IMG/VR virus record: IMGVR_UViG_3300027733_000209
Coordinates: 1-23,317 of that record
DNA from: a virus
DNA: 23,317 nt
Reading direction: 5' to 3' (one strand)
This document shows, piece after piece, positions 1 to 13,924 of this stretch; the first letter of the stretch is position 1, and the number at the start of each line of letters is the position of its first letter. A program made the translations under genes and the position numbers. A model generated the notes under the pieces. That model was not told the origin of the DNA. It worked only from the letters and a program-made list of their open reading frames with translations, and searched no databases.

Positions 1-2385
1 TGGGAACGTTGGGAAGGTTGGGAAGGTTGGTGATACTGGGTAGCCCTTTGGTGTGAACGTAGGGAACGTTGGGAAAGTTGGGAAAGTTGGGAAAGTTGGG
101 AAGGTAGGGAAGGTAGGGAAGGTTGGGAAGGTTGGTGATACTGGTGGTGTAGCAGTGCCAACAGCAACTACAGAACCTGAGTATACCGTTTCTGTACCGC
201 TAGCATTTGTTGAAACAAGCTTTGCTCTCCATTGTCTTGGAGCTGATACTCCACCCTTGCTAATATATACGTCTACGTCTGCCTGTGTTACTGTTGCACT
301 TGTGCTTCCTGTGTCTACAAAGTTTAAGTTTGAATCAGTTACTTGAAGCTGAATTGATGAAGACGGAGTTGGGGTACCTGTAGCTGCTAAACCAATTGAT
401 GCCGTTATAGTTGTTCCAACATTTCCAGTTCCAGATATAAACGCCTGGCCGCCAGATGGGGCTGCAGTTGCAGCTTGGTATGAGTATGTGGATACAGTAA
501 TTACTTGACCAGTAACTGCCGTGGTTCCAGCTATTGGGGATTGTGATGAAACTTTGCCCACTAATGTCATATTAGAAGTAAACTGTCCTGGGCCAGCGTT
601 AGAAATTGTATATTCGCTGGTACTTGAAGGAACTGAACCTCCAACAAAATTAGGAACAATAAAGGTTGAAGCACTTGCAGTAATGGAGCTAGAATAAACT
701 ATTGCAGATGTTCCTGCAGAGTTATATGCACTTGCTTTAGCTCTAAACATTTGAGGATAAGATCCTCCTCCTTTAGATATGTAATTAGATAAATCTGCTG
801 CTGTTACTACATAAGAAGTAACTCCCATATCAACATAATTTGCCTGGCCGTCCATTTTTTGTAAAGTTGTATTGTAACCAAGTGGCAGACCGTTACCAGT
901 AGACCATCCAGTAGTACTCATTGAAATTGTGGTTCCAACAACTCCTGTTCCAAATATGGTTGCTACTCCGCCAGTTGGAATTACATAATTTGTTCTACAT
1001 GTGACTATATTTGAAGATGCTGGTAAAGATGTTCCTGCTGAGTTTGTTGCCGTTGCTACTGCTACAAAAGTTGCTTGTGAGTCTGAGTCTGCTTGGGTTG
1101 TTGTATATGTTGCACTTGATGTACCTGTTGCAACTGCAACTCCATTTCTATTTATTACAATTGAGTATGTGGCTCCTATAACATCAAGCCAAGTTCCTTG
1201 ATTTGCAGTAAGTGTTACACCGACTGCCACTTCCCCTGTTGGGGTAAGTGTTGGGTTTGTATATACTGTTGGAATTTTATTTGCTGCATCAGGTGAATTT
1301 GATAGCCCAATCCATGGTCCTGTAAATCCTCTAGATGTTCCAGAAACAACTACTCTTAGCGGACCAAAATTTGCTCCCGCTGCAATTGGAAGATATGCGC
1401 TTTGAGCTGTTGTTCCTGTGCGATATGGAGACCATCCATATTCTAGAGTCTCGTCATTAAAATATTGATATTCTACAGAATATCCAGTTTGAACAATATT
1501 GTTTAAGGTCCAACTGGTTTGTATTGCTGTTGCATATACATATGGAGATATTGCAACTGATGATGCAGTAACTATAGGTTTATTTGGAAGCAAGTCAAGA
1601 ATGTCTTTTGATTGATACATGATTGCACCTAGTCTATTTCCTGGCTGCCCTATTGCTTGATTAAAAGCTGAAACTGCTGGGCTTGTTTCATTAAATGGTG
1701 CAACATATATACCTAGTGTTGTTAGCCCAATTAATTTAGTTAAATCTGGATTTCCAAAATCATAATCAAATAAATTATTGCCCTTGCCATTTATTGTTAT
1801 TTCTGTTCTTGCAATTCCTGGGCCCTGATATATTAATAAATAGCCATCTGCGCCTTCACAAACATCCCAAAATACTCTAATTTTTCCGTTGATTGGTCCT
1901 GCAGTATCTGACTGTACAAATGCAGTTATTGTTTCAATAAATTGAGGAAGCATTATTCCTGCAGATGTTCCGTATGCCTTTTCGCTGTCACCTGCATTAT
2001 TTGTAGCAATAACAGCGCATCTAATTTTATATCCAACTAGATCTCCAGTTAATAGAAAACTATTTTGTGTTGCCCCAGTAATTTGTGACCAGTTGATCTC
2101 TGCCCCAGCATATATTCCTTTTTCCCACTGGTATTTGTAAGATGTTGGACTACCTTCCCAAGTTCCATTTGTAGAGGTTACTGTTTGTCCAACTCCTTTA
2201 AACTCATCTGTTCTTGAATATGATAAGGTTGGATCTGTTAGCTTTTTTGGCTTTTCTAATATTTCTACCCATGATGTTCCGTTAAAAATAAATGCCTTTT
2301 TATAGTCTTGTGGGCCTGCACCCGTTACGACTTTAATTTTTTTGGACGGCAACCAAGAGGACCCGTCAAAAATTTTAAATGGCAA
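1..2385 (-). CDS. Tail fibre/adhesin with Ig-like domains and Phe-Pro-Thr repeats (3' end outside window)
   Basis: I translated the minus strand from 2385 to base 1 and found one open frame of 795 codons with no stop. The start is TTG at 2385-2383, six bases after a GGAG. There is no ATG nearby, and the gene begins just past the stop of the 609-aa fibre gene. The N-terminus has two F-x-G-x-S-W type motifs (KIFDGSSW, FIFNGTSW). Next come Ig/fibronectin-like domains, for example NGTWEGSPTSYKYQWEKG followed by GYKIRCAVIATNNAG, and further copies with GTW and NSAGTS motifs. At the far end are eight FPT tripeptides, the spacer FTPKGYPVSPT, then more FPT. The order suggests a surface-exposed tail protein that binds the host. 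That role is inferred; the fold class is reasonably clear. Confidence 0.8.
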   Translation of the reverse strand, partial: MPFKIFDGSSWLPSKKIKVVTGAGPQDYKKAFIFNGTSWVEILEKPKKLTDPTLSYSRTDEFKGVGQTVTSTNGTWEGSPTSYKYQWEKGIYAGAEINWSQITGATQNSFLLTGDLVGYKIRCAVIATNNAGDSEKAYGTSAGIMLPQFIETITAFVQSDTAGPINGKIRVFWDVCEGADGYLLIYQGPGIARTEITINGKGNNLFDYDFGNPDLTKLIGLTTLGIYVAPFNETSPAVSAFNQAIGQPGNRLGAIMYQSKDILDLLPNKPIVTASSVAISPYVYATAIQTSWTLNNIVQTGYSVEYQYFNDETLEYGWSPYRTGTTAQSAYLPIAAGANFGPLRVVVSGTSRGFTGPWIGLSNSPDAANKIPTVYTNPTLTPTGEVAVGVTLTANQGTWLDVIGATYSIVINRNGVAVATGTSSATYTTTQADSDSQATFVAVATATNSAGTSLPASSNIVTCRTNYVIPTGGVATIFGTGVVGTTISMSTTGWSTGNGLPLGYNTTLQKMDGQANYVDMGVTSYVVTAADLSNYISKGGGSYPQMFRAKASAYNSAGTSAIVYSSSITASASTFIVPNFVGGSVPSSTSEYTISNAGPGQFTSNMTLVGKVSSQSPIAGTTAVTGQVITVSTYSYQAATAAPSGGQAFISGTGNVGTTITASIGLAATGTPTPSSSIQLQVTDSNLNFVDTGSTSATVTQADVDVYISKGGVSAPRQWRAKLVSTNASGTETVYSGSVVAVGTATPPVSPTFPTFPTFPTFPTFPTFPTFPTFPTFTPKGYPVSPTFPTFPTFP
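10..144 (-). repeat. 9-bp tandem repeat encoding (Phe-Pro-Thr)n
   Basis: On the plus strand this reads as GGGAAGGTT-like 9-mers with A/G and T/A changes at single positions. On the minus strand it encodes FPT eight times, the spacer FTPKGYPVSPT, and further FPT units up to the window edge. The variation is mostly synonymous, which fits selection on the protein. Confidence 0.85.
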
Positions 2386-2399
2386 TTACTTCTCCGTTC

Positions 2400-4229
2400 T
2401 TAGTATTGAATGTAAATGTCTCCTGCTACGTATGTGCCAGTTGGCGCATCAACAGAAGTTCCATACAATATTTTGTTTCGTGCATTAGGGCTGGCGGCAT
2501 TTGAATATCCTCCAAGTGTTACTACGTCTCCTAGATAAACTACGTTTCCGTTAATACCGATAGAAGATTTTTCTAATTTAGTATTTGGGATTACGCCTTG
2601 TAATGCTGCGCTTGGTATTGAAGAATCGCTAAAGTTAACAGTAGCACTTGTAAACGAAACTGTTCCAGTAAATGTTGGATTGTCTTTTGGTGCAAGAGCT
2701 GAAACGTCCAAAGTTTCCCAACTAGGGCTGTAGCCATTAGTCATTAAATATTTGTTAGAATGTGATGTTTGATCTGGAAGCCCTGCAATTGCTGTTAATC
2801 CTGTTACATTCACTCCAGTAAAATCTATAGCACCAGTAAATACAGGGCTATTTAATGGAGCCTTGAGATCTAGGGCAGTCAATGTTGCTGTTGAAATTGG
2901 CTTGTTAATATCTGAAGTGTTATCAACATTTCCTAGTCCTACGTGAGTTTTTGTAATTCCAGCAACTGTGCCTGTAAATGTTGGATTAGCTTTTGGAGCA
3001 TATGTTGATGCTGCAGTTGTAGAAGATAGTTTTGTTCCAACAAGAGTAGTTAATGATGATACTGCAGATTCATCGTTTGCTAATTGTGCTGCAAGCTCAC
3101 CCAAAGTATCCAATGAGGCTGGAGCTGAATTAACAAGAGATGCTACTGCTGCACTTATATCTGATGTTCTAGCAATTGTAGATGGAATTACTGATTCTAA
3201 TATTTGAGATGAAGAATTAAGTCCTGCGTATCCTCCAGGGTTATTCTTATCCCCTTCAAGAACATAAGAGTCAAGTTGGTTGGCAAGTCCTGGAATTGTT
3301 ACATATTGATTAGCTATTTCAGTTCTTAGATCTTCTGCTACAGTATTTGTATAAATAGTTGCTGCAGTAAACTTTGAGTTTGTTGCAGATAAAGCTCTGG
3401 CATCTGTAAAGTATTTATTTAATGTGCCTTCTGCAAGGTTATTTGTTGTTTTCCCTGTCAGGGAAACGCTTGCTGTAGCTGTAGCAATATCTGATGCAAC
3501 AGCTGCTTTTGCTCTAGCGTCTGTAAAGTATTTATTAGTTCCTTCTGCAATTTGAGTTGTAGTGGTAGAGTTAATTGCAATATTTCTGTCAACAATTTCA
3601 TTAGAAATTGCAGTATTTATTGCATTGCTTCTATTTGAAGCCTCTTGTGCTACTGCTGTAACTATTTCTGCAGATCTTGCAATTGCCTCTTGTGTTACGA
3701 GAGAGCCTGCTATGTTTGTAGCATCTGAATGAGCTTCTGTTAAAATTCCTGCTCTAGCTGCTGCAATTGCTGATGTCGATGAAGTTCCAGCTGCTGCAAT
3801 TGCTTCTGCTTTGGCTGCTGCAATTGCTGAGTTTCTTGCTACCGATTCAGCGGTGGCAGCATTAGAAATTGCTGATGCATTAGCAGCAAGTGCTCTTGCA
3901 TTTGTAAAGTATAAGTTAGATCCTTCTGATAAATTGCTTGTTGATTGAGTGCTAAACTTTGCATCAACTACTGCCTGTACTTCAGTATTAACTGATTGAT
4001 AATCTGGCAATTGAGAAATTGGAACTTTTCCAGTTGCGCCAAGCGTTGCAACACCATTGGCTGCACCCACTTTAAATGCATAAAATGATTGCTGGTTCCA
4101 TCTAGAACCATTACCTATTTTAAACTTATATGTATCGGTTTCAACACCGATTTCACCTGGAAGTAAAACTGGGTTTATTGTTGTCCAGTTTATTGATGTA
4201 TCTCTTCTAAATAGAATTTTTGTTGACAT
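2400..4229 (-). CDS. Long tail fibre protein
   Basis: A 609-aa tail fibre. Residues 24-47 (GEIGVETDTYKFKIGNGSRW) match the N-terminal module common on phage tail fibres and tropism determinants. Residues 115-225 are Ala-rich and probably form an extended helical shaft. The repeat EG-x-x-x-YFT-D/N-ARA occurs at about 101-113, 229-239 and 267-279, a signature of long phage fibres. VGLGNVDNTSDINKP at 430-444 is the classical fibre repeat. NPTFTG-type repeats stand at 415-420, 460-466 and 517-522. The start is supported by GGAGGA placed inside the last codons of the upstream gene, three bases before this ATG. It probably forms a trimeric host-recognition fibre; the receptor is unknown. Confidence 0.85.
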   Translation of the reverse strand: MSTKILFRRDTSINWTTINPVLLPGEIGVETDTYKFKIGNGSRWNQQSFYAFKVGAANGVATLGATGKVPISQLPDYQSVNTEVQAVVDAKFSTQSTSNLSEGSNLYFTNARALAANASAISNAATAESVARNSAIAAAKAEAIAAAGTSSTSAIAAARAGILTEAHSDATNIAGSLVTQEAIARSAEIVTAVAQEASNRSNAINTAISNEIVDRNIAINSTTTTQIAEGTNKYFTDARAKAAVASDIATATASVSLTGKTTNNLAEGTLNKYFTDARALSATNSKFTAATIYTNTVAEDLRTEIANQYVTIPGLANQLDSYVLEGDKNNPGGYAGLNSSSQILESVIPSTIARTSDISAAVASLVNSAPASLDTLGELAAQLANDESAVSSLTTLVGTKLSSTTAASTYAPKANPTFTGTVAGITKTHVGLGNVDNTSDINKPISTATLTALDLKAPLNSPVFTGAIDFTGVNVTGLTAIAGLPDQTSHSNKYLMTNGYSPSWETLDVSALAPKDNPTFTGTVSFTSATVNFSDSSIPSAALQGVIPNTKLEKSSIGINGNVVYLGDVVTLGGYSNAASPNARNKILYGTSVDAPTGTYVAGDIYIQY

Positions 4230-4232
4230 TAT

Positions 4233-4694
4233 TTATGCTCCTCCAAAATCAATAACTGTTGAGTCTTGTTCTGTTGAAGCTCCTCCTTCTAGCAATGTAT
4301 TGTCTTCTTCTGGTTCTGGTATTGAATCTGGAGCGCCGCCACTAAACAATGTCAGTTGAGTATAATCTGGATCTACCAAATCGTCCTCTGGGCCTCCTCC
4401 TATTATACCTGCAACTATTGGCAAAGCCTGTTCAGGTCCTTCAGCTTCATTATAGTTTTGAAATCTAATTGGATTTCTAACGTCTACTGTGTGTAGCCTT
4501 CCGTCAAATGCGTGTGTATGCTCATAAAATGGGGTTGGGTCATCGCTTGGGGGTGTAAGCTCCATCCAAACTGCTCCATTAAATATACGTAAGTTTTTAG
4601 TAATGACATTATAATAAATGTCACCCTCACGGGCATTGGCTGGGTCATCCTGTATTGTTAAAAGATTTAATGCAACCTTCATTTGACGTGACAT
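4233..4694 (-). CDS. Small tail-associated protein with NG-W module and acidic tail
   Basis: A 153-aa protein in the tail-fibre operon. Residues 22-45 hold the module REGDIYYN...LRIFNGAVW that also occurs in neighbouring tail genes. A His/Asp-containing stretch (YEHTHAFDGRLHTVD) follows at about 57-71. The C-terminal third is acidic and rich in Gly, Pro and Asp. An AGGA lies about seven bases before the ATG. It is probably a minor tail or fibre-connector protein, judged from its position and the shared module. No enzymatic motif is visible. Confidence 0.7.
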   Translation of the reverse strand: MSRQMKVALNLLTIQDDPANAREGDIYYNVITKNLRIFNGAVWMELTPPSDDPTPFYEHTHAFDGRLHTVDVRNPIRFQNYNEAEGPEQALPIVAGIIGGGPEDDLVDPDYTQLTLFSGGAPDSIPEPEEDNTLLEGGASTEQDSTVIDFGGA

Positions 4695-4698
4695 CTAT

Positions 4699-5670
4699 TT
4701 ATCCTACTACTACTACCTTGTATTGCCCTGCTGTTGGAGCGGTGGCAAAATCAATAGTTACTGAATTTTGATCTGTTATTTTAACATCTGCTTCAATTTG
4801 TGCAAATGGAGATGCGGCTTCAAAGATTTGAACTGTGACTTCAGTTGTGCCTAATCTATGTAACACTGGGTGTGTTGTAGAAGTAGCTGAAAGAACTTCT
4901 GCATACTTTCTTGCAATTGCATGATAATTGACTCCATTATTTGTTAATGTCCATTTATCTGATGTTTCATTCCATAAGATTTCTACATCTGTCTCTGTTC
5001 CACGCTCTACACGAATTCCAGCATCTGCTGCTGGTGCTCCTGTAAAGTCGGTATTAAGATTAATCTTATTATCAACTATATTTACCTGTGTAGTATTTAC
5101 TGAGTTAATTGTTCCAGTTACGTTTAGGTTCCCGCCAACGGTTAAGTTGTTGGTAATTGTTACGTCATCTGGTAAACCAATTGTAACTGCTGCATTATGT
5201 CCACTATTTGGAGATACTGTAACTTCTCCAGCTGTTCCGACTATAGTTGCTACATAATCGCCTGTTGTTTGTGTGCTAAGAGGTATAACTAAATTAGCTT
5301 CGCTGGCTGCAGTTAAACGTCCTTGCTGGTCAACAGTAAATGTTGGTACTTTTGTAATTGAGCCATATGTGCCTGCAGTAACTGAGGTATCATTGAGCTT
5401 AATTGTTGTATATCCTGCTGGGTCATTATATGTTGAGGTTAATCCTGTTCCTCCAACAATATATTGACCAATAGCATCTTGAATAACCTCTAAAGATCCA
5501 GAAGTAGAAATCCACTCTGTACCATTCCAGAAGTACATAATATTATCGCCAGTATTGTAGTAAACTTGACCCGATACTGGACTAGTTGGTGCTGATCCTA
5601 AATTTTGAATTCTAGCATTGAGTAACTCATTTTTATTGAGATCAATACTAACTAAAAACTTTTTTGACAT
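4699..5670 (-). CDS. Minor tail / fibre protein
   Basis: A 323-aa protein. The N-terminus ([17 protein letters not shown]) and the motif [20 protein letters not shown] (34-53) are typical of phage tail-tip or fibre proteins. The middle is Thr/Gly/Val-rich beta structure ([21 protein letters not shown]), as in beta-helical fibre shafts. The C-terminus ([18 protein letters not shown] to GQYKVVVVG) looks like a compact beta-sandwich tip and resembles the C-terminus of the 146-aa neighbour, which also has an H-x-LG motif. The start is supported by AAGGGGG shortly before the ATG. Its role in adsorption is inferred from context. Confidence 0.75.
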
Positions 5671-5682
5671 TGTCTTTCCCCC

Positions 5683-6123
5683 TTATGACAGATATGCTGT
5701 CCCTGAAAATGGCTGTGCCATAGTCAGTGTTAATTTATTTGTGTTGTTATAGTCTATACCTGTTTCAAGTATATCCCCTGCGCTTGATTTTATTGTTACG
5801 TTTGGATGATAGCCCAAATTATGCTCTATTGGTAAAGAATATATTCCAGCAACTGGACCCGTTAATTGAGTTAGTTCCCAAGAATAAGCTAGAGTGTTTG
5901 TTGTGAGCAATATAATTTTGGCATTTTGCCATGTTGCATCAGATAGTTTTGGACCATAGAATTTAGATGTATTAGTATCATAGTAGAAGTCGCCCTCTAG
6001 GCCTAAATTATTTGAAGGTATACCATTACCACTTAATATGGTTTTACCCCTAGGTCCTTGCGGTCCTGGGGTTGATATAACTACATCGTTAATTACTTCG
6101 GTTACGACTATTGATTCTGTCAT
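5683..6123 (-). CDS. Small tail protein with collagen-like GPQGPRG
   Basis: A 146-aa protein. Residues 20-26 are GPQGPRG, a short collagen-like stretch often found at trimeric joints of phage fibres. It is followed by EGDFYYDTNTSKFYGP and a W, a variant of the module shared by this operon. The C-terminal half (LPIEHNLGYHPNVTIKSSAGD...LTLTMAQPFSGTAYLS) is a beta domain of the type that ends tail-fibre or baseplate proteins. Its ATG shares one base with the TAA of the preceding gene (TAATG), so translation is probably coupled. Confidence 0.75.
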   Translation of the reverse strand: MTESIVVTEVINDVVISTPGPQGPRGKTILSGNGIPSNNLGLEGDFYYDTNTSKFYGPKLSDATWQNAKIILLTTNTLAYSWELTQLTGPVAGIYSLPIEHNLGYHPNVTIKSSAGDILETGIDYNNTNKLTLTMAQPFSGTAYLS

Positions 6124-6470
6124 TATATGGTTACCGATCTATTGAGCGTCATAAAGCCCTCAAGGAGTTTTATTTTGTTCCCATTAGAATCGACAACCAT
6201 TAAATCATAAGATGATTTAGGATAAAAGAGTTTATTTGTTTGTGTAGGTGTCATTTTAATAGTTAATTTACCACGTGTTGGATCAATTACTATTCCACCA
6301 GAAGGTGATGTTAAGGTTACAGCTAATTTTGCTCCACCCTTTGTATCACGAACCTGCATCTTTGCGGATGCGCCTGTAAGATCAATTGCATTTCCATTAT
6401 CGTCTTTATATTCTAGTATAAAGCTAAATGTTGCATTTTGATCTACTTCAAAGTTCTTTTGTCCTGCCAT
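6123..6470 (-). CDS. Small tail/baseplate beta-domain protein
   Basis: A 115-aa protein beginning MAGQKNFEVDQNATF and containing DLTGASAKMQVRDTKGG and GKLTIKMTPTQTNKL. This all-beta pattern resembles the N-terminal domain of phage baseplate upper proteins, where DLTGATA-x-MQIR-type motifs are common. It is the first gene of the tail block after the holin. An AGGAG stands ten bases before the ATG; a nearer out-of-frame ATG is ignored. Its stop overlaps the next start. It is probably structural, perhaps a fibre-anchoring domain; the family assignment is tentative. Confidence 0.65.
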   Translation of the reverse strand: MAGQKNFEVDQNATFSFILEYKDDNGNAIDLTGASAKMQVRDTKGGAKLAVTLTSPSGGIVIDPTRGKLTIKMTPTQTNKLFYPKSSYDLMVVDSNGNKIKLLEGFMTLNRSVTI

Positions 6471-6542: not shown

Positions 6543-6782
6543 TTAAGCTTTATTAGTAAACCCAAAACTCTTATCATTTGGGTTGAGAGCCTTCAAGATT
6601 ACGGGTGCAACGGCTGCGATGCCACCAAGTAGTAAATCTTTAGGATTTGTATTGCCTGTCATGTATAAGGCTAGCGCTGCTGAAAGAAATGCTCTTCCGT
6701 AGCTTGCTAACGCTGCTAGAATCTGTTCTTGCATTGTTACCTTTCCATCTTTGTTTAAATCTGCTTTTGCAAATTTAGCCAT
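6543..6782 (-). CDS. Holin-like membrane protein with an EF-hand loop
   Basis: A 79-aa protein. Residues 8-19 (DLNKDGKVTMQE) form a complete canonical EF-hand calcium loop: D1, N3, D5, G6, V8, E12. It is followed by two hydrophobic segments, about 21-43 (ILAALASYGRAFLSAALALYM) and 50-66 (LLLGGIAAVAPVILKAL), and a C-terminus NPNDKSFG. From memory, two membrane spans and an NP-x-D-x-x-FG tail resemble small actinobacteriophage holins. The ATG has GAGGAG about seven bases upstream. The gene lies between nrdJ and the tail genes, with the lysozyme close by on the other strand. The membrane role in lysis is inferred. Confidence 0.65.
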   Translation of the reverse strand: MAKFAKADLNKDGKVTMQEQILAALASYGRAFLSAALALYMTGNTNPKDLLLGGIAAVAPVILKALNPNDKSFGFTNKA

Positions 6783-6848
6783 ATTGTCATCTCCTCGTGG
6801 GCGTGGTGCCCATGAATTTTGGTTTTACCCAATACTATAATTCTACCA

Positions 6849-8783
6849 CTATGCCGAGATATCCACAAGCTCACAGTTTCCGTCTGAACTGCAAGCAAGC
6901 GTGGCATTTGTAGATGTGCCATCTTCTGTCTCATAAAATGATAGGTCTTCCCAACGAATATTTTTAGGCATTTTTGCCACCAAAGCATCGTATTCTTCTT
7001 TTGAAATTTCCTGGTATGGTGCCTGCTTATATGTATGCTCTGAATGAGGCAGGAATGAAATACCAGAAACTTCATCAAAGTTTTTATAAACCCATGCTCC
7101 TACTTCCATCCACTCATCTTCTTTAACAGATACTGTAATTGAGGGCTTATGCTCACACCATGCACGTTGGTAAACCAGCCAAATGTTTAGGTGGTCAATT
7201 GCTGTTAAGTCATTTCTAATTATTGCACCTTCTGGTGCTTTTATTGGAAATGAAAATACGTATGTATCGTTTGGCTTCATTACATCATCTTCTACTGGAA
7301 TTCCAACTTCCTTCAAAAACGTAGAGATAGGATCTCCCTTTGAACCACGAACTGTACGAATGTAGTATGGAGAATGCCAAGCATGCATTCCTGAAGATAC
7401 GCCAACTAATTGAGATACTGTTCCTGATGGTTTCACGCATGTAATTGCTGCTGATTCTGGAATACCGATTTTTTCAGCCTCGTTTTTATTTTGTGCTCTT
7501 GCCAATTCTCTTAAAGTCATTAAGAATGCCTCTAAAGAAACAAGATCTTCTTTCCCTGACATAAACTTATGCCCAAATTGTCCTGTTAGGGAAACCCCTA
7601 GTAAACGCTCTTCTTCTGTGTTATCTTTCCAGATTTTACGTAGGTACTTAAAGTCTGTAAGTGTTGATTGCCATGTTCCAAGGATTGTTGCAAGCTCGAC
7701 CTTACGTTGAATATCTTTCTTTGTGTCATTTTCACGTAGTACGACTTCTGAAAGGTTACAAAACTGGTAAGGACGTAAAATAATCTCTGAGCACGGGTTA
7801 GTTCCATAGTGAATATCTGGATCTCTTCTTCCATACTTGGCTGCCTGGGCTTGAGCTGCGGCCACATTGTATATACCTCGTTCTCCTGACTTCGAGTCAT
7901 ATAAAGATTTCCATTCTGCAATAAATTGCTCCATCTCTGGCTTGCGAGAGTACGCAACAGAGTTATTAGATAAAGCACGTTGTGGACTTGCTTCCCACCA
8001 GTTACCTGATTTGGCTTGAGCCATTTCAATGTCGTTAATATTTGAAAGTGAAATCATTGCAGAGCGTCTAACTCCTCCAACAACAACTACCTCACCAATT
8101 TTACACATAATGTCGTGGCATTCAATTGGCTTTAGATTTCTACCAGCGGCAGACTTAAATTTTGCAATAGTAAAATCAAAAAGATTTACAAGAGGTTGTG
8201 GTCCAGAAGACCTTCCACCCATTGTCTTAAGTCTTGCTCCAGCAGGACGAACTTTTGAAACGTCAATAGCTGGAATGTGCCCTGTCCAAAGCAATGCGAG
8301 TAGTTCACGATATGCCTTAGCCCAACCTTGCTTAGAATCTTCTACAACAATAACAGTGTCTGTTTTTTCAAGTTTTTCTGGAACGGCAGGAAGTTTATTA
8401 ATGTACTTGTATTCTACTGAGAATCCGACACCCGTTCCGCACATCAAAATATACATTGTTTCGTCAAATGATCTTGGAGAGTCAACTGGTAAGAATGCAC
8501 AGTTATATCCAGCAACGTTGTCTCTTTCTAATGCGGCTCCAGAAGTCATAACTGATCTCATAGATGGCATTACATTTCGTTCAAATACAAACTCTTTTAA
8601 TTCCGCAACAAGCTTCTCATTTGGAATATAATTATGATTTTCTTTTAAATGATTGGTCATGAAAGAAAAATATCTATCTACTGTTTCTCCCCATGTTTCT
8701 CTACGGCCTTCTGCTTCTACCCACTTTGCATATCTAGATAAAGCAATAAAGTTTTCATAAGGGTTTTCAATAGTTTGTGACAT
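6849..8783 (-). CDS. nrdJ: Class II (B12-dependent) ribonucleoside-triphosphate reductase
   Basis: A 644-aa enzyme that would reduce ribonucleotides to deoxyribonucleotides with adenosylcobalamin, supplying phage DNA synthesis. The active-site sequence TNPCSEI gives N329, C331 (thiyl radical) and E333. C342 follows eleven residues after C331, the same spacing as the C408/C419 pair of Lactobacillus leichmannii RTPR. C95 (YNCAF) is the likely disulfide partner. The C-terminal C631-x5-C637 pair would relay electrons from thioredoxin. It is about 95 residues shorter than the Lactobacillus enzyme. It is transcribed away from the lysozyme gene and is followed by the holin gene. The ATG has only AAAGG, ten bases upstream. 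Confidence 0.95.
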   Translation of the reverse strand: MSQTIENPYENFIALSRYAKWVEAEGRRETWGETVDRYFSFMTNHLKENHNYIPNEKLVAELKEFVFERNVMPSMRSVMTSGAALERDNVAGYNCAFLPVDSPRSFDETMYILMCGTGVGFSVEYKYINKLPAVPEKLEKTDTVIVVEDSKQGWAKAYRELLALLWTGHIPAIDVSKVRPAGARLKTMGGRSSGPQPLVNLFDFTIAKFKSAAGRNLKPIECHDIMCKIGEVVVVGGVRRSAMISLSNINDIEMAQAKSGNWWEASPQRALSNNSVAYSRKPEMEQFIAEWKSLYDSKSGERGIYNVAAAQAQAAKYGRRDPDIHYGTNPCSEIILRPYQFCNLSEVVLRENDTKKDIQRKVELATILGTWQSTLTDFKYLRKIWKDNTEEERLLGVSLTGQFGHKFMSGKEDLVSLEAFLMTLRELARAQNKNEAEKIGIPESAAITCVKPSGTVSQLVGVSSGMHAWHSPYYIRTVRGSKGDPISTFLKEVGIPVEDDVMKPNDTYVFSFPIKAPEGAIIRNDLTAIDHLNIWLVYQRAWCEHKPSITVSVKEDEWMEVGAWVYKNFDEVSGISFLPHSEHTYKQAPYQEISKEEYDALVAKMPKNIRWEDLSFYETEDGTSTNATLACSSDGNCELVDISA

Positions 8784-8931: not shown

Positions 8932-8964
8932 TGTAGTTCGTTATCTCTATAGGAGGAAATGCCA

Positions 8965-9507
8965 ATGGAGAATATAAAGCAACAGTTTAGCGATTTAGTT
9001 CGTGACTGGACAATAATAGCAGTAACAATGTTATTTTTGTTTGGTAACTCGGCAAACGCTTTAACTGTAGTAGAACCTTTAGTGAAAACTGAAGCCCAAT
9101 TAAAGCAAGAAGTCTTAGATAGCTTTAGTAAAGAAATTTACAAACCATCTGAGATGCTTACAGACGAAAAGTTAAAAGTATTACTTGAGACTGTAGGATT
9201 CGAAGGAGTAGGCCTTAAACAAGCTTGGTCCATAGCAAAGCGTGAATCTAATGGAAGACCGCTTGCATATAACGGGAATAAGAATACAGGAGATAGTTCT
9301 TACGGATTATTTCAAATAAATATGATCGGAGACTTAGGTCCAGAAAGACTTGAGAAATTTGATCTACAGAGTAACAAGGAGTTATTCGACCCAGTAACAA
9401 ACGCAGAGATAACGTATTATATGACCAATGGCGGTATAGATTGGTCAGCTTGGAAGGGTATGACCCCAAAAGCTAAGGAATTTTTCTTAAAATTTCCGAC
9501 AAAGTAA
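8965..9507 (+). CDS. Secreted lysozyme / lytic transglycosylase (SLT-like)
   Basis: A 180-aa peptidoglycan-cleaving enzyme. I chose the ATG at 8965 because AGGAGG (8951-8956) is eight bases upstream; the ATG at 8959 leaves only two. Residues 14-32 form a hydrophobic signal segment ending in SANA-L, a likely signal-peptidase site. The catalytic domain holds AKRESNGRPLAYN, with E94 as the likely catalytic acid, and SSYGLFQIN (111-119), the hallmark of the goose-lysozyme/SLT fold. The export signal suggests a SAR- or Sec-type endolysin, or a virion-independent muralytic protein. It diverges from nrdJ, with the holin on the opposite strand. Confidence 0.8.
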   Translation: MENIKQQFSDLVRDWTIIAVTMLFLFGNSANALTVVEPLVKTEAQLKQEVLDSFSKEIYKPSEMLTDEKLKVLLETVGFEGVGLKQAWSIAKRESNGRPLAYNGNKNTGDSSYGLFQINMIGDLGPERLEKFDLQSNKELFDPVTNAEITYYMTNGGIDWSAWKGMTPKAKEFFLKFPTK

Positions 9508-10416: not shown

Positions 10417-11040
10417 TTGGAATCATCTGTAGCAAGATGGGTTGACGACCCCGTATTTACATCTATTCACGATGCATTAAACAAAAAGGCTAATATGTCT
10501 AATGATATAAATAGCCCTTTTTATGCAAGGCTGTATGTTCTAAGACAAATAGCAATTCAACAGGCAAAGCTTCATGCAAATTTTGCGGAGTGCGGTGTAT
10601 ATGCGGGAATGTCAATGTATTTTGTTCAAGACTTGTGTGATAAAAGATTTATAGGAATAGATTCTTTTGAAGGAGTTTCAGAGCCTGGAGAATTTGATAC
10701 TGATTACTTTAAAACAGTTAAACTAGAAATTCCAATTGACAGGGCCAAACTTATTCTAGAAGGATGCAGAAGCCCAGAGCTATATGCTGGATGGATACCT
10801 GATGTTTTTGAAAAAATAGAACCCCTAAACTATTCTTATGTTCATATTGATGTTGATTTATACGAACCTACAAAAGACTCAATAAACTATTTCTGGCCAA
10901 AAATTGTTCCTGGTGGCGTTATTATTTGTGACGATTATGGTTCATATAAAACTATTGGTGCAAGAAAAGCAATGGATGATTTTTTTGGTAAAGATAAAAT
11001 ATTAGAGCTACCTACTGGACAAGGTCTGGTTTGGAAATAA
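10417..11040 (+). CDS. TylF/MycF-like SAM-dependent O-methyltransferase
   Basis: A 207-aa methyltransferase of the macrocin O-methyltransferase (TylF) type. The SAM-binding loop is FAECGVYAGMS (56-66). IDSFEG (81-86) and HIDVDLYEP (143-151) follow. The CDD at 171-173 with D145/D147 supplies the acidic residues that bind metal and substrate in this family. Members methylate sugar hydroxyls on antibiotics or glycans. The start is a TTG placed immediately after the previous TAA; no ATG fits. It heads a cluster with an oxygenase, a second methyltransferase-like protein and a sulfotransferase-like protein, which suggests joint modification of a glycan or small molecule. The substrate is unknown. 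Confidence 0.85.
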   Translation: MESSVARWVDDPVFTSIHDALNKKANMSNDINSPFYARLYVLRQIAIQQAKLHANFAECGVYAGMSMYFVQDLCDKRFIGIDSFEGVSEPGEFDTDYFKTVKLEIPIDRAKLILEGCRSPELYAGWIPDVFEKIEPLNYSYVHIDVDLYEPTKDSINYFWPKIVPGGVIICDDYGSYKTIGARKAMDDFFGKDKILELPTGQGLVWK

Positions 11041-11349: not shown

Positions 11350-12173
11350 TGTTTAATGACGATCCACGCTGTATAAAGTTAGCTCCAAGAATATACAAAT
11401 TTGAAAATATTATTCCAAAAGAAATCTACGACTCTGTGTATGCTAGAGGACAAGAATTTGAAAGACACTCTAACCCAAATCTATGGAGCGTTAGAGACTG
11501 GTACGCCGATAAGATGAGCCCTCCATTTAAAGAAACTTTTCCTCTTTGGAAATTTATGTCCGAACTAATACACCCTGAAATTGTTATTCACCCAGTAAGA
11601 AACCTTATGGTGACTGGCCCTGGAGATGAAGGTATGTTTGTTCACACAGACAGTCCTGGAAAAGGCAATTGTGACCTGCTGCTAGAAATTGATCAGTGGT
11701 CAACTTGTTGCGAACTAGAATATGGAATGATTGCATATGTTGGAGACTTTACTGGCGGAGAACTTTACTATCCAAACATTAACCCAGATGGTACCGAAAA
11801 AACTGGTAACTTAAGAATTGATGAAGCAAAAATGGCAGAGCCTTGCCTAATAGTTCCAGTCAAGCCTGGGGACATCGTCCTACATGGAGCATGCTCTCCA
11901 TATGATCACGGAACAATGGAAACCCTGTCTGGTACAAGATACGCATTTTCAACTTTTGCGCTACTTGCAGAAGATAACCCAGGTACATTCTTTAACTACA
12001 AAACTCCAGAATGGGAAGAGCAAATAGGAAAATATGAAAATCCTACTGAAAGACAGCTAAATGAATGGAACTCTCCATTTAGAGTTAACCCTCAGTTTGC
12101 CGACATGATCCAGGAACGTACTACTGCTCAAGATAAACTAAGAGACGAACTAGAAAACAGAGCTGGTAAATAG
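11349..12173 (+). CDS. 2-oxoglutarate/Fe(II)-dependent oxygenase-like protein
   Basis: A 274-aa protein with the iron-binding triad of the prolyl-4-hydroxylase-like oxygenases: H99-T-D101 (FVHTDSPG) and distal H187 (YDHGTMETLSGTRYAF). R197, ten residues after H187, is where the family places the residue that grips 2-oxoglutarate. GGELYYPN (136-143) and PGDIVLHG (173-180) are also typical of the double-stranded beta-helix core. It would hydroxylate a protein, sugar or small molecule. It lies between two TylF-like genes and a sulfotransferase-like gene. The substrate is not evident. The start is coupled (TAATG) to the 46-aa gene. Confidence 0.75.
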   Translation: MFNDDPRCIKLAPRIYKFENIIPKEIYDSVYARGQEFERHSNPNLWSVRDWYADKMSPPFKETFPLWKFMSELIHPEIVIHPVRNLMVTGPGDEGMFVHTDSPGKGNCDLLLEIDQWSTCCELEYGMIAYVGDFTGGELYYPNINPDGTEKTGNLRIDEAKMAEPCLIVPVKPGDIVLHGACSPYDHGTMETLSGTRYAFSTFALLAEDNPGTFFNYKTPEWEEQIGKYENPTERQLNEWNSPFRVNPQFADMIQERTTAQDKLRDELENRAGK

Positions 12174-12714
12174 AATTACATACCCTACGGTAAATAAAGA
12201 ATGGGCATTAGAGTTTGATGCAACATTATTAAATCTTTCTATTCCTAATGGTGATTTTGTAGAGTGTGGTAGCTGGACTGGCTCATCTGCAGAAAAATTA
12301 GCAAAGCATTGTAAAAAAGACCTTCACCTATTTGATTCATGGGAAGGACTTTCTGAAGTAGGAGAATTCGATAACCCTATATACAAAGAGCTTACCTGGA
12401 AGTCTGAAATTGATGTATGCAAAAATGTTTTATCAGAATATAAAAATATTTATTTTTATAAAGGATGGATCCCATATAGATTTAACGAAATAAAAGATAG
12501 AACTATAGCATTGCTACATTTAGACTTAAGTTTATATCAACCGACAAAGGATTCTTTAGAATTCTTTTGGGATAAGGTTATTCCTGGAGGTTGGGTAATA
12601 ACTAATTTTCATGAAGGTTTCTCATACGGTGCCGAAAAGGCAGTTAGAGACTTTTTTAATAGCATTAGAGAGATTGAGCTAAAAGCTCAAGGTATATGCC
12701 TAATAAAAAAATAA
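12163..12714 (+). CDS. Degenerate TylF-like methyltransferase paralogue, non-ATG start
   Basis: The open frame runs from a stop at 12151 to 12714 and aligns with the 10417-11040 methyltransferase: FVECGSWTGSS (32-42) with FAECGVYAGMS, LFDSWEGLSEVGEFD with GIDSFEGVSEPGEFD, and LYQPTKDSLEFFW with LYEPTKDSINYFW. No ATG or GTG precedes the SAM motif. CTG at 12163, overlapping the oxygenase gene by 11 bases, or ATT at 12175 are the only plausible starts. The metal-binding acids are lost: HIDVDLY becomes HLDLSLY and CDDYG becomes TNFHEG. It may be inactive, a partner subunit, or metal-independent. Product length is about 183 aa if CTG is used. Confidence 0.65.
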   Translation: MVNRITYPTVNKEWALEFDATLLNLSIPNGDFVECGSWTGSSAEKLAKHCKKDLHLFDSWEGLSEVGEFDNPIYKELTWKSEIDVCKNVLSEYKNIYFYKGWIPYRFNEIKDRTIALLHLDLSLYQPTKDSLEFFWDKVIPGGWVITNFHEGFSYGAEKAVRDFFNSIREIELKAQGICLIKK

Positions 12715-13682: not shown

Positions 13683-13762
13683 ATTAGGAGTATTGCGTAG
13701 TATATTCCAATAAGAATCCAAGATAGCCAGAGTATTGACCGATATAGTTTAGAAATTTTCAT
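13676..13762 (-). CDS. 28-aa single-span membrane peptide
   Basis: MKISKLYRSILWLSWILIGIYYAILLIW: a basic start followed by one hydrophobic span. It overlaps its neighbours on both sides, as phage micro-genes do. No strong ribosome-binding site is seen, so translation is probably coupled. Function unknown. Confidence 0.45.
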   Translation of the reverse strand: MKISKLYRSILWLSWILIGIYYAILLIW

Positions 13763-13895
13763 TATCAATATCTTCATCTAGGTCAAAATCAAAGATACTT
13801 TCTTGATTACCCGCCCAATTTAAAAATTTAGACAATGCAACTCCTGAAAGGATTGCTATCGCAATGGTACTTATTCCTGCCCAGATCTTCTTCAT
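13749..13895 (-). CDS. 48-aa membrane-anchored protein with acidic tail
   Basis: KKIWAGISTIAIAILSGVAL is an N-terminal membrane span or uncleaved signal, followed by an acidic tail (FDFDLDEDIDNENF). AGGA lies about nine bases before the ATG. It is the first gene of a three-gene minus-strand group. Function unknown. Confidence 0.5.
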   Translation of the reverse strand: MKKIWAGISTIAIAILSGVALSKFLNWAGNQESIFDFDLDEDIDNENF

Positions 13896-13924
13896 ATATA
13901 TCCTAGTCAACTGCTTTTATATTG

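Follow-up and report, generated by a model that had tools for sequence, protein, structure and literature searches.

The window analyzed here is a 23,317-nucleotide stretch of viral DNA (positions 1 to 23,317 of IMG/VR record IMGVR_UViG_3300027733_000209). On its minus strand lies a gene with an ATG start, the product of which (MAKFAKADLNKDGKVTMQEQILAALASYGRAFLSAALALYMTGNTNPKDLLLGGIAAVAPVILKALNPNDKSFGFTNKA) is a small holin-like protein of 79 residues. The gene, its predicted elements and its neighbors are as follows.

6543..6782, minus strand: holin-like protein of 79 residues with two membrane spans, preceded by a calcium-type loop at the N-terminus
6726..6761, minus strand: EF-type loop DLNKDGKVTMQE, residues 8-19 (D8 to E19)
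6732..6734, minus strand: Met17 codon, loop position 10, a conserved internal start codon that may serve as a start
6660..6734, minus strand: helix 17-41, in which the exiting helix of the loop is continuous with span 1 (about residues 21-41), predicted from an AlphaFold2 (AF2) model and hydropathy
6585..6644, minus strand: helix 47-66, which corresponds to span 2, predicted from the AF2 model and hydropathy
6791..6796, minus strand: GAGGAG ribosome-binding site of the holin-like gene
6849..8783, minus strand: class II (B12-type) ribonucleotide reductase (RNR), the upstream neighbor, found in 77 of 77 loop loci
6123..6470, minus strand: BppU_N-like tail/baseplate protein (weak Pfam hit), the downstream neighbor, found in 72 of 77 loop loci
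8959..9507, plus strand: SLT_3 lysozyme-like protein with an N-terminal signal/anchor segment, the nearest lytic enzyme

Several other features of the window were recorded. A nine-base tandem repeat at the edge of the window (1-135) encodes a PTFPTFPTF run within a long tail-type protein, which runs off the window. A TylF-type methyltransferase gene (Pfam 1e-12) is located at 10417-11040, and a short ORF about 1.5 kb past it (12511-12714) is similar to the end of another gene of this type. At 13749-13910 the minus strand has a 53-residue ORF that combines a single membrane span with a strongly acidic tail (FDFDLDEDIDNENF), and 26 related loci contain a short ORF like it.

The preliminary description of this DNA had reported a canonical EF-hand loop fused to a holin-like protein. 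The coordinates, strand and peptide of the loop were found to be correct, with D8 to E19 encoded from 6761 to 6726 on the minus strand and all ligand positions present: the loop is 12 residues long, with ligands at positions 1, 3, 5, 9 and 12 and glycine at position 6. The strict 12-mer D.[DN].[DNS]G.[VIL][TSD]..E was detected once among all six-frame ORFs of the window, compared to a mean of 0.0 in shuffled ORFs (500 shuffles). A chance match of the pattern was rejected on the basis of this absence from shuffles and of the conservation of the loop in relatives. The word canonical holds for the loop itself and does not extend to the whole EF-hand. The region is not matched by PROSITE PS00018, as residue 13 of the motif is Q instead of a hydrophobic residue (Q/K/E in relatives); the Pfam EF-hand and dockerin models all scored below their curated cut-offs on the 79-residue protein (EF-hand_5, E 5.8e-4, 19.7 bits vs a cut-off of 25.9); and an incoming helix ahead of the loop is absent from the AF2 model, such that a helix-loop-helix is not formed. 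In a sequence search of the PDB, the loop alone was matched, and weakly, by EF loops of dockerin-type and neuronal calcium-sensor proteins.

The AF2 model, generated with an alignment of 60 relatives (mean pLDDT 67), contained helices at residues 17-41 and 47-66 only. Nothing regular was predicted before residue 17, confidence over the loop was low (pLDDT 48-71 in the first three ten-residue blocks), and the residues that precede D1 in relatives mostly number 3-9. The model thus points to a half EF-hand, composed of the loop and an exiting helix that is predicted to run directly into span 1. Hydropathy was moderate, with best 19-mers of 1.64 and 1.69. Span 1 is weakly hydrophobic, includes an invariant Arg30 and is composed of 39% Gly/Ala and 26% polar residues. 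By hydropathy and the AF2 hairpin, the product is, with moderate confidence, a small phage protein with at least one span, as expected of a holin; the two spans earlier noted right after the loop are present as a predicted hairpin, based on the moderate hydropathy and the model of that mean pLDDT. Positive charges are found at both ends of the helical hairpin and favor a topology with both termini inside (N-in/C-in), an arrangement described for holin-like actinophage proteins with two spans (PMC9671378).

Relatives of the protein were collected from IMG/VR, where each query had at least 527-576 relatives, of which the best 80 per query were used. The resulting 384 loci were reduced to 210 DNA-distinct genes; some loci are overlapping views of one contig, an overlap that this counting lessens and does not remove. 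Among the matches listed, 137 of the 210 genes had an intact loop, 69 were loop-less, two had a decayed loop (DLKQNGLLEMQE) and two had lost it, in a sample that is ranked by similarity, so the frequency of the loop is not a census. Since loop-containing queries favor loop-bearing relatives in the search ranking, a lost-loop query was added, and its 80 nearest loci comprised 70 with an intact loop, four with a decayed loop and six without a loop.

Within the 137 distinct genes, D1, G6 and E12 were each found in 137/137. N3 was present in 136 (D in one), D5 in 136 (N in one) and V8 in 136 (I in one), and position 9 was T in 131 and otherwise S, V or N. Variation was mainly at positions without a side-chain ligand, namely 4 (K/N/Q), 7 (K/R/V/I), 10 (M/E/V) and 11 (Q/T/M), and codons varied synonymously across the loop-bearing genes. 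The ligand positions were kept in 68 unique loop/core combinations, and in one locus (L164, loop DLDKNGKVTEME) both positions 3 and 5 had changed, to D3/N5, with retention of the ligand type. The conservation over these 137 homologous genes is that of a Dx[DN]xDG calcium loop. This ligand-specific conservation, with substitutions at non-ligand positions, argues that the loop is a predicted divalent-metal site of the Ca2+ type that has been under selection.

A tree built from only the membrane part (54 columns, weakly resolved internally) separated all loop-bearing, decayed and lost rows from the rest by a branch supported at 100/94. The cheapest reading of this tree would be one gain of the loop on a loop-less family, followed by two losses or decays. 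The spans were kept in the loop-less branch (69/210 distinct genes), in the decayed-loop group and in the lost-loop group, which suggests that the loop is a selected accessory and does not belong to the core membrane function. The preliminary description had counted homologues that retain the spans without the loop residues as evidence against its proposal. Such homologues do occur, outside the loop-bearing lineage and as small groups inside it, and the loop is strictly kept elsewhere. Copies of the gene in cellular genomes or prophages were not detected in the cellular genome contigs searched. In the decayed-loop group (L381 about 4200-4990, also L380), about 650 bp separates the RNR and holin-like genes, and an ORF in this stretch encodes a secreted or lipoprotein-like product (MKKVLSILVACGLVFAGYS...).

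The gene neighborhood differed between the two branches. Of 70 loop-less loci, 65 had a lytic enzyme gene within 1 kb and on the strand of the holin-like gene, often abutting or overlapping it; this lytic gene encoded a CHAP or VanY-like enzyme (both by Pfam) or an SLT-type enzyme. By contrast, a same-strand lytic gene within 1 kb was found in 0 of 77 loop-bearing loci; the SLT_3 lysozyme gene is about 2.3 kb away on the opposite strand (divergent) in 73 of the 77, and fibre genes come after the BppU-like gene. Thus, the loop lineage has lost adjacency to a lytic enzyme. Loop-less loci of the L087 type have the order holin-like gene, VanY, BppU-like gene and fibres, which ties loop-less loci to the order of the window, and those of the L091 type have the holin-like gene followed by an 82-residue membrane protein that matches phrog_443 and a VanY-type endolysin. 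The position of the loop-less relatives beside CHAP, VanY and SLT enzymes indicates, by gene context, that the family belongs to the lysis module and is holin-like. Membership in a known holin family was dropped, as the 79-residue protein had no match among Pfam and PHROG holin families. The earlier designation of the protein as holin-like is supported by the lysis cassettes of its loop-less relatives and weakened in near-full-length loop-bearing genomes, where the gene is not part of a lysis cassette and other holin candidates exist.

These other candidates were identified in related near-full-length genomes, the window itself being a 23-kb fragment. Eight near-full-length loop-bearing genomes (96-120 kb) carry one copy of the loop gene each, and all eight also encode another holin candidate: a 59-64-residue two-span protein together with a 96-residue phrog_26427-type protein in five, and a 59-64-residue two-span protein together with a 147-residue two-span protein adjoining a CHAP endolysin in three. 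In view of these candidates and of the missing cassette, the loop protein is not called the holin of these phages; it is probably accessory or regulatory and not the only holin. A family-to-family comparison of the loop proteins with a phrog_443-like holin family by hhalign gave a probability of 12.5% (P 0.0023). The 79-residue protein had a weak hit to phrog_26427 ('nuclease', 82 positions), a family that strongly matches a separate small two-span protein of the same phages (E about 1e-25). Proteins of this type are encoded at L390:2489-2779, L091:6195-6443 and OQ999401.1 about 11676-11927, and the one from L091 has a further match, to the holin family phrog_443 (2.4e-7). For phrog_26427, 'nuclease' looks to be a wrong label, and the gene, annotated as hypothetical in Actinomycetia phage DSL-LC01, is a holin candidate. 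The phrog_443/phrog_26427-type candidate (L390:2489-2779) is likewise a two-span lysis-module protein and neighbors the loop-less relatives (L091); the DDGKL...E at its C-terminus is reminiscent of part of an EF loop, with ligands 1 and 3 missing.

DSL-LC01 is also the source of the only named relative in the phage collection, which is 51% identical, has no loop and is annotated as a hypothetical protein (OQ999401.1 20187-20381; L082:12043-12237). A CHAP-type endolysin is encoded about 1.4 kb downstream of this relative on the same strand, and a holin-like annotation of OQ999401.1 20187-20381 would thus be reasonable. The DSL-LC01 record gives an Actinomycetia bacterium as host and lake water as origin, and a loop-bearing phage genome encodes a WhiB transcription factor (L388:4225-4536, Pfam E 6e-11). 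From the record and the WhiB gene, we infer that the hosts are freshwater actinobacteria.

Holins time phage lysis, and their trigger has long been in question. A single, unpaired EF-type loop is expected to bind Ca2+ weakly, and free Ca2+ is low in the cytosol and far higher outside. We tentatively favor a reading in which this two-span protein of freshwater-actinobacteria phages derives from a loop-less, lysis-cassette family that gained a half EF-hand once, and now acts as an accessory holin or holin regulator whose triggering is sharpened by Ca2+ loading. The N-terminus would begin on the cytoplasmic side, and at the low free Ca2+ there the loop, as an unpaired and weakly binding site, would be empty. 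The loop would load Ca2+ once the membrane becomes leaky or span 1 shifts outward, and the loaded loop may then stiffen the start of span 1 and lock its position, such that triggering becomes sharper or irreversible. Calcium gating of lysis, as the preliminary description had put forward, is plausible in these terms.

It is also possible, if somewhat unlikely, that the protein has no lysis role in this lineage, having taken on another membrane function once its place in the cassette was lost (for example in entry, in superinfection exclusion or as a tail-associated membrane peptide), and that the loop serves this function. Such a role would fit the location of the gene between the RNR and tail-fibre genes in loop loci and the presence, in these genomes, of further holin candidates encoded together with or close to a CHAP endolysin. 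However, residues R30, Y40, G43, P47 and P60 of the core are common to loop-bearing proteins and cassette-resident relatives, and the loop-less relatives reveal a cassette origin.

The main mechanistic rival is a structural clamp without gating, in which the N-terminus is outside, where Ca2+ is plentiful, and the always-loaded loop only fixes topology or stabilizes the start of span 1. A single gain and at least two losses, through which the spans persisted, are as expected of a stabilizer, and most Dx[DN]xDG contexts besides EF-hands and calcium blades are extracellular (PMC3123361). The charges at both hairpin ends instead fit the N-in/C-in topology reported for the actinophage proteins, and on balance we consider the clamp unlikely.

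All 139 sequences with an intact or decayed loop have a start codon within it: ATG at loop position 10 (134 sequences), GTG at that position (one) or ATG at position 11 (four). This codon lies 8-9 residues ahead of the core, in line with the loop-less relatives, which start mostly 8-10 residues ahead. Pairing of the upstream stretch with the 16S tail (median -8.0 kcal/mol) was near that of real starts, and 98% of the 63 internal ATGs used as controls had weaker pairing. Internal initiation that yields long and short forms, as for lambda S, is thus possible. The gene may on this account be a dual-start regulator, with a long form from Met1 that carries the loop and responds to Ca2+ and a short form from the internal Met or GTG that would be equivalent to the loop-less relatives, paired as antiholin and holin; Met is retained at this place even in the decayed-loop group. 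The Shine-Dalgarno-like stretch, however, was mostly no stronger than in synonymous shuffles (typical P 0.2-0.6), which leaves selection on it beyond protein constraint unsupported and means that it can be a by-product of the Gly-Lys-Val codons. Met is, moreover, absent from that place in the lost-loop group, and we judge a dual-start pair to be quite unlikely.

That the loop merely resembles an EF loop, by chance or as a helix cap, with no metal bound, would agree with the non-hydrophobic position 13, the missing incoming helix and the sub-threshold Pfam scores; it is made improbable by the ligand-specific invariance over the 68 unique loop/core combinations, with substitutions mainly at non-ligand sites, and by the absence of the pattern from shuffles. 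Very improbable is a calcium-latched holin system, in which a dual-start gene encodes a long form with the Ca2+ loop and a short form without it. In the calcium-poor cytoplasm the empty loop would hold span 1 at rest, until Ca2+ that comes in through the first membrane leaks, or that is met as span 1 flips out, fills the loop and makes the conversion of the protein irreversible, a scheme that, if true, would make lysis all-or-none and dependent on lake-water calcium.

The loop protein shares features with several known systems. The Dx[DN]xDG calcium loops have the same linear motif, including N3, G6, V8, T9 and E12, as single loops without a full helix-loop-helix (PMC3123361); in that paper phage and holin are mentioned 0 times, and here the exiting helix is a predicted membrane span. 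The holin-like proteins of Gordonia phages (PMC9671378) and LysF1a of F1 mycobacteriophages (PMC13056207) are of the same size, with two spans and a short N-terminus, and occur as several per phage; the likeness is by features, and calcium and EF-hands have 0 mentions in the Gordonia phage paper (PMC9671378). In mycobacteriophages, two holin-like proteins jointly shape one lysis event (PMC13056207). The pinholin of phage 21 likewise has two spans, a short linker and a first span that is Gly/Ala-rich and polar and that moves out of the membrane (PMC9671378); its dual-start motif is an analogy, it has no calcium loop, and span 1 of the loop protein may move in a similar way. The phage lysin LysGH15 is reported to have an EF-hand-like calcium-binding site (PMC4022735), through which calcium dependence in phage lysis arises there, in a CHAP enzyme and not a membrane protein. 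Among open-access papers, judged mostly by title and abstract, those retrieved on holins with EF-hands or calcium binding dealt with endolysins, lysis enzymes or other topics, and none with a holin that has such a loop; within that scope the earlier remark that this control had not been seen described is supported, with gating itself a proposal. Calcium loops are known in phage lysis enzymes, and what appears to be new is the occurrence of a Dx[DN]xDG loop ahead of span 1 in a holin-like protein.

A selected site of the ion-binding type at the start of span 1 would provide a defined, testable chemical input to the holin trigger, for which ready-made controls exist in nature as homologues whose loop is intact, decayed or missing. 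In these phages of very abundant freshwater bacteria, calcium may influence the timing or manner in which the host membrane is breached.
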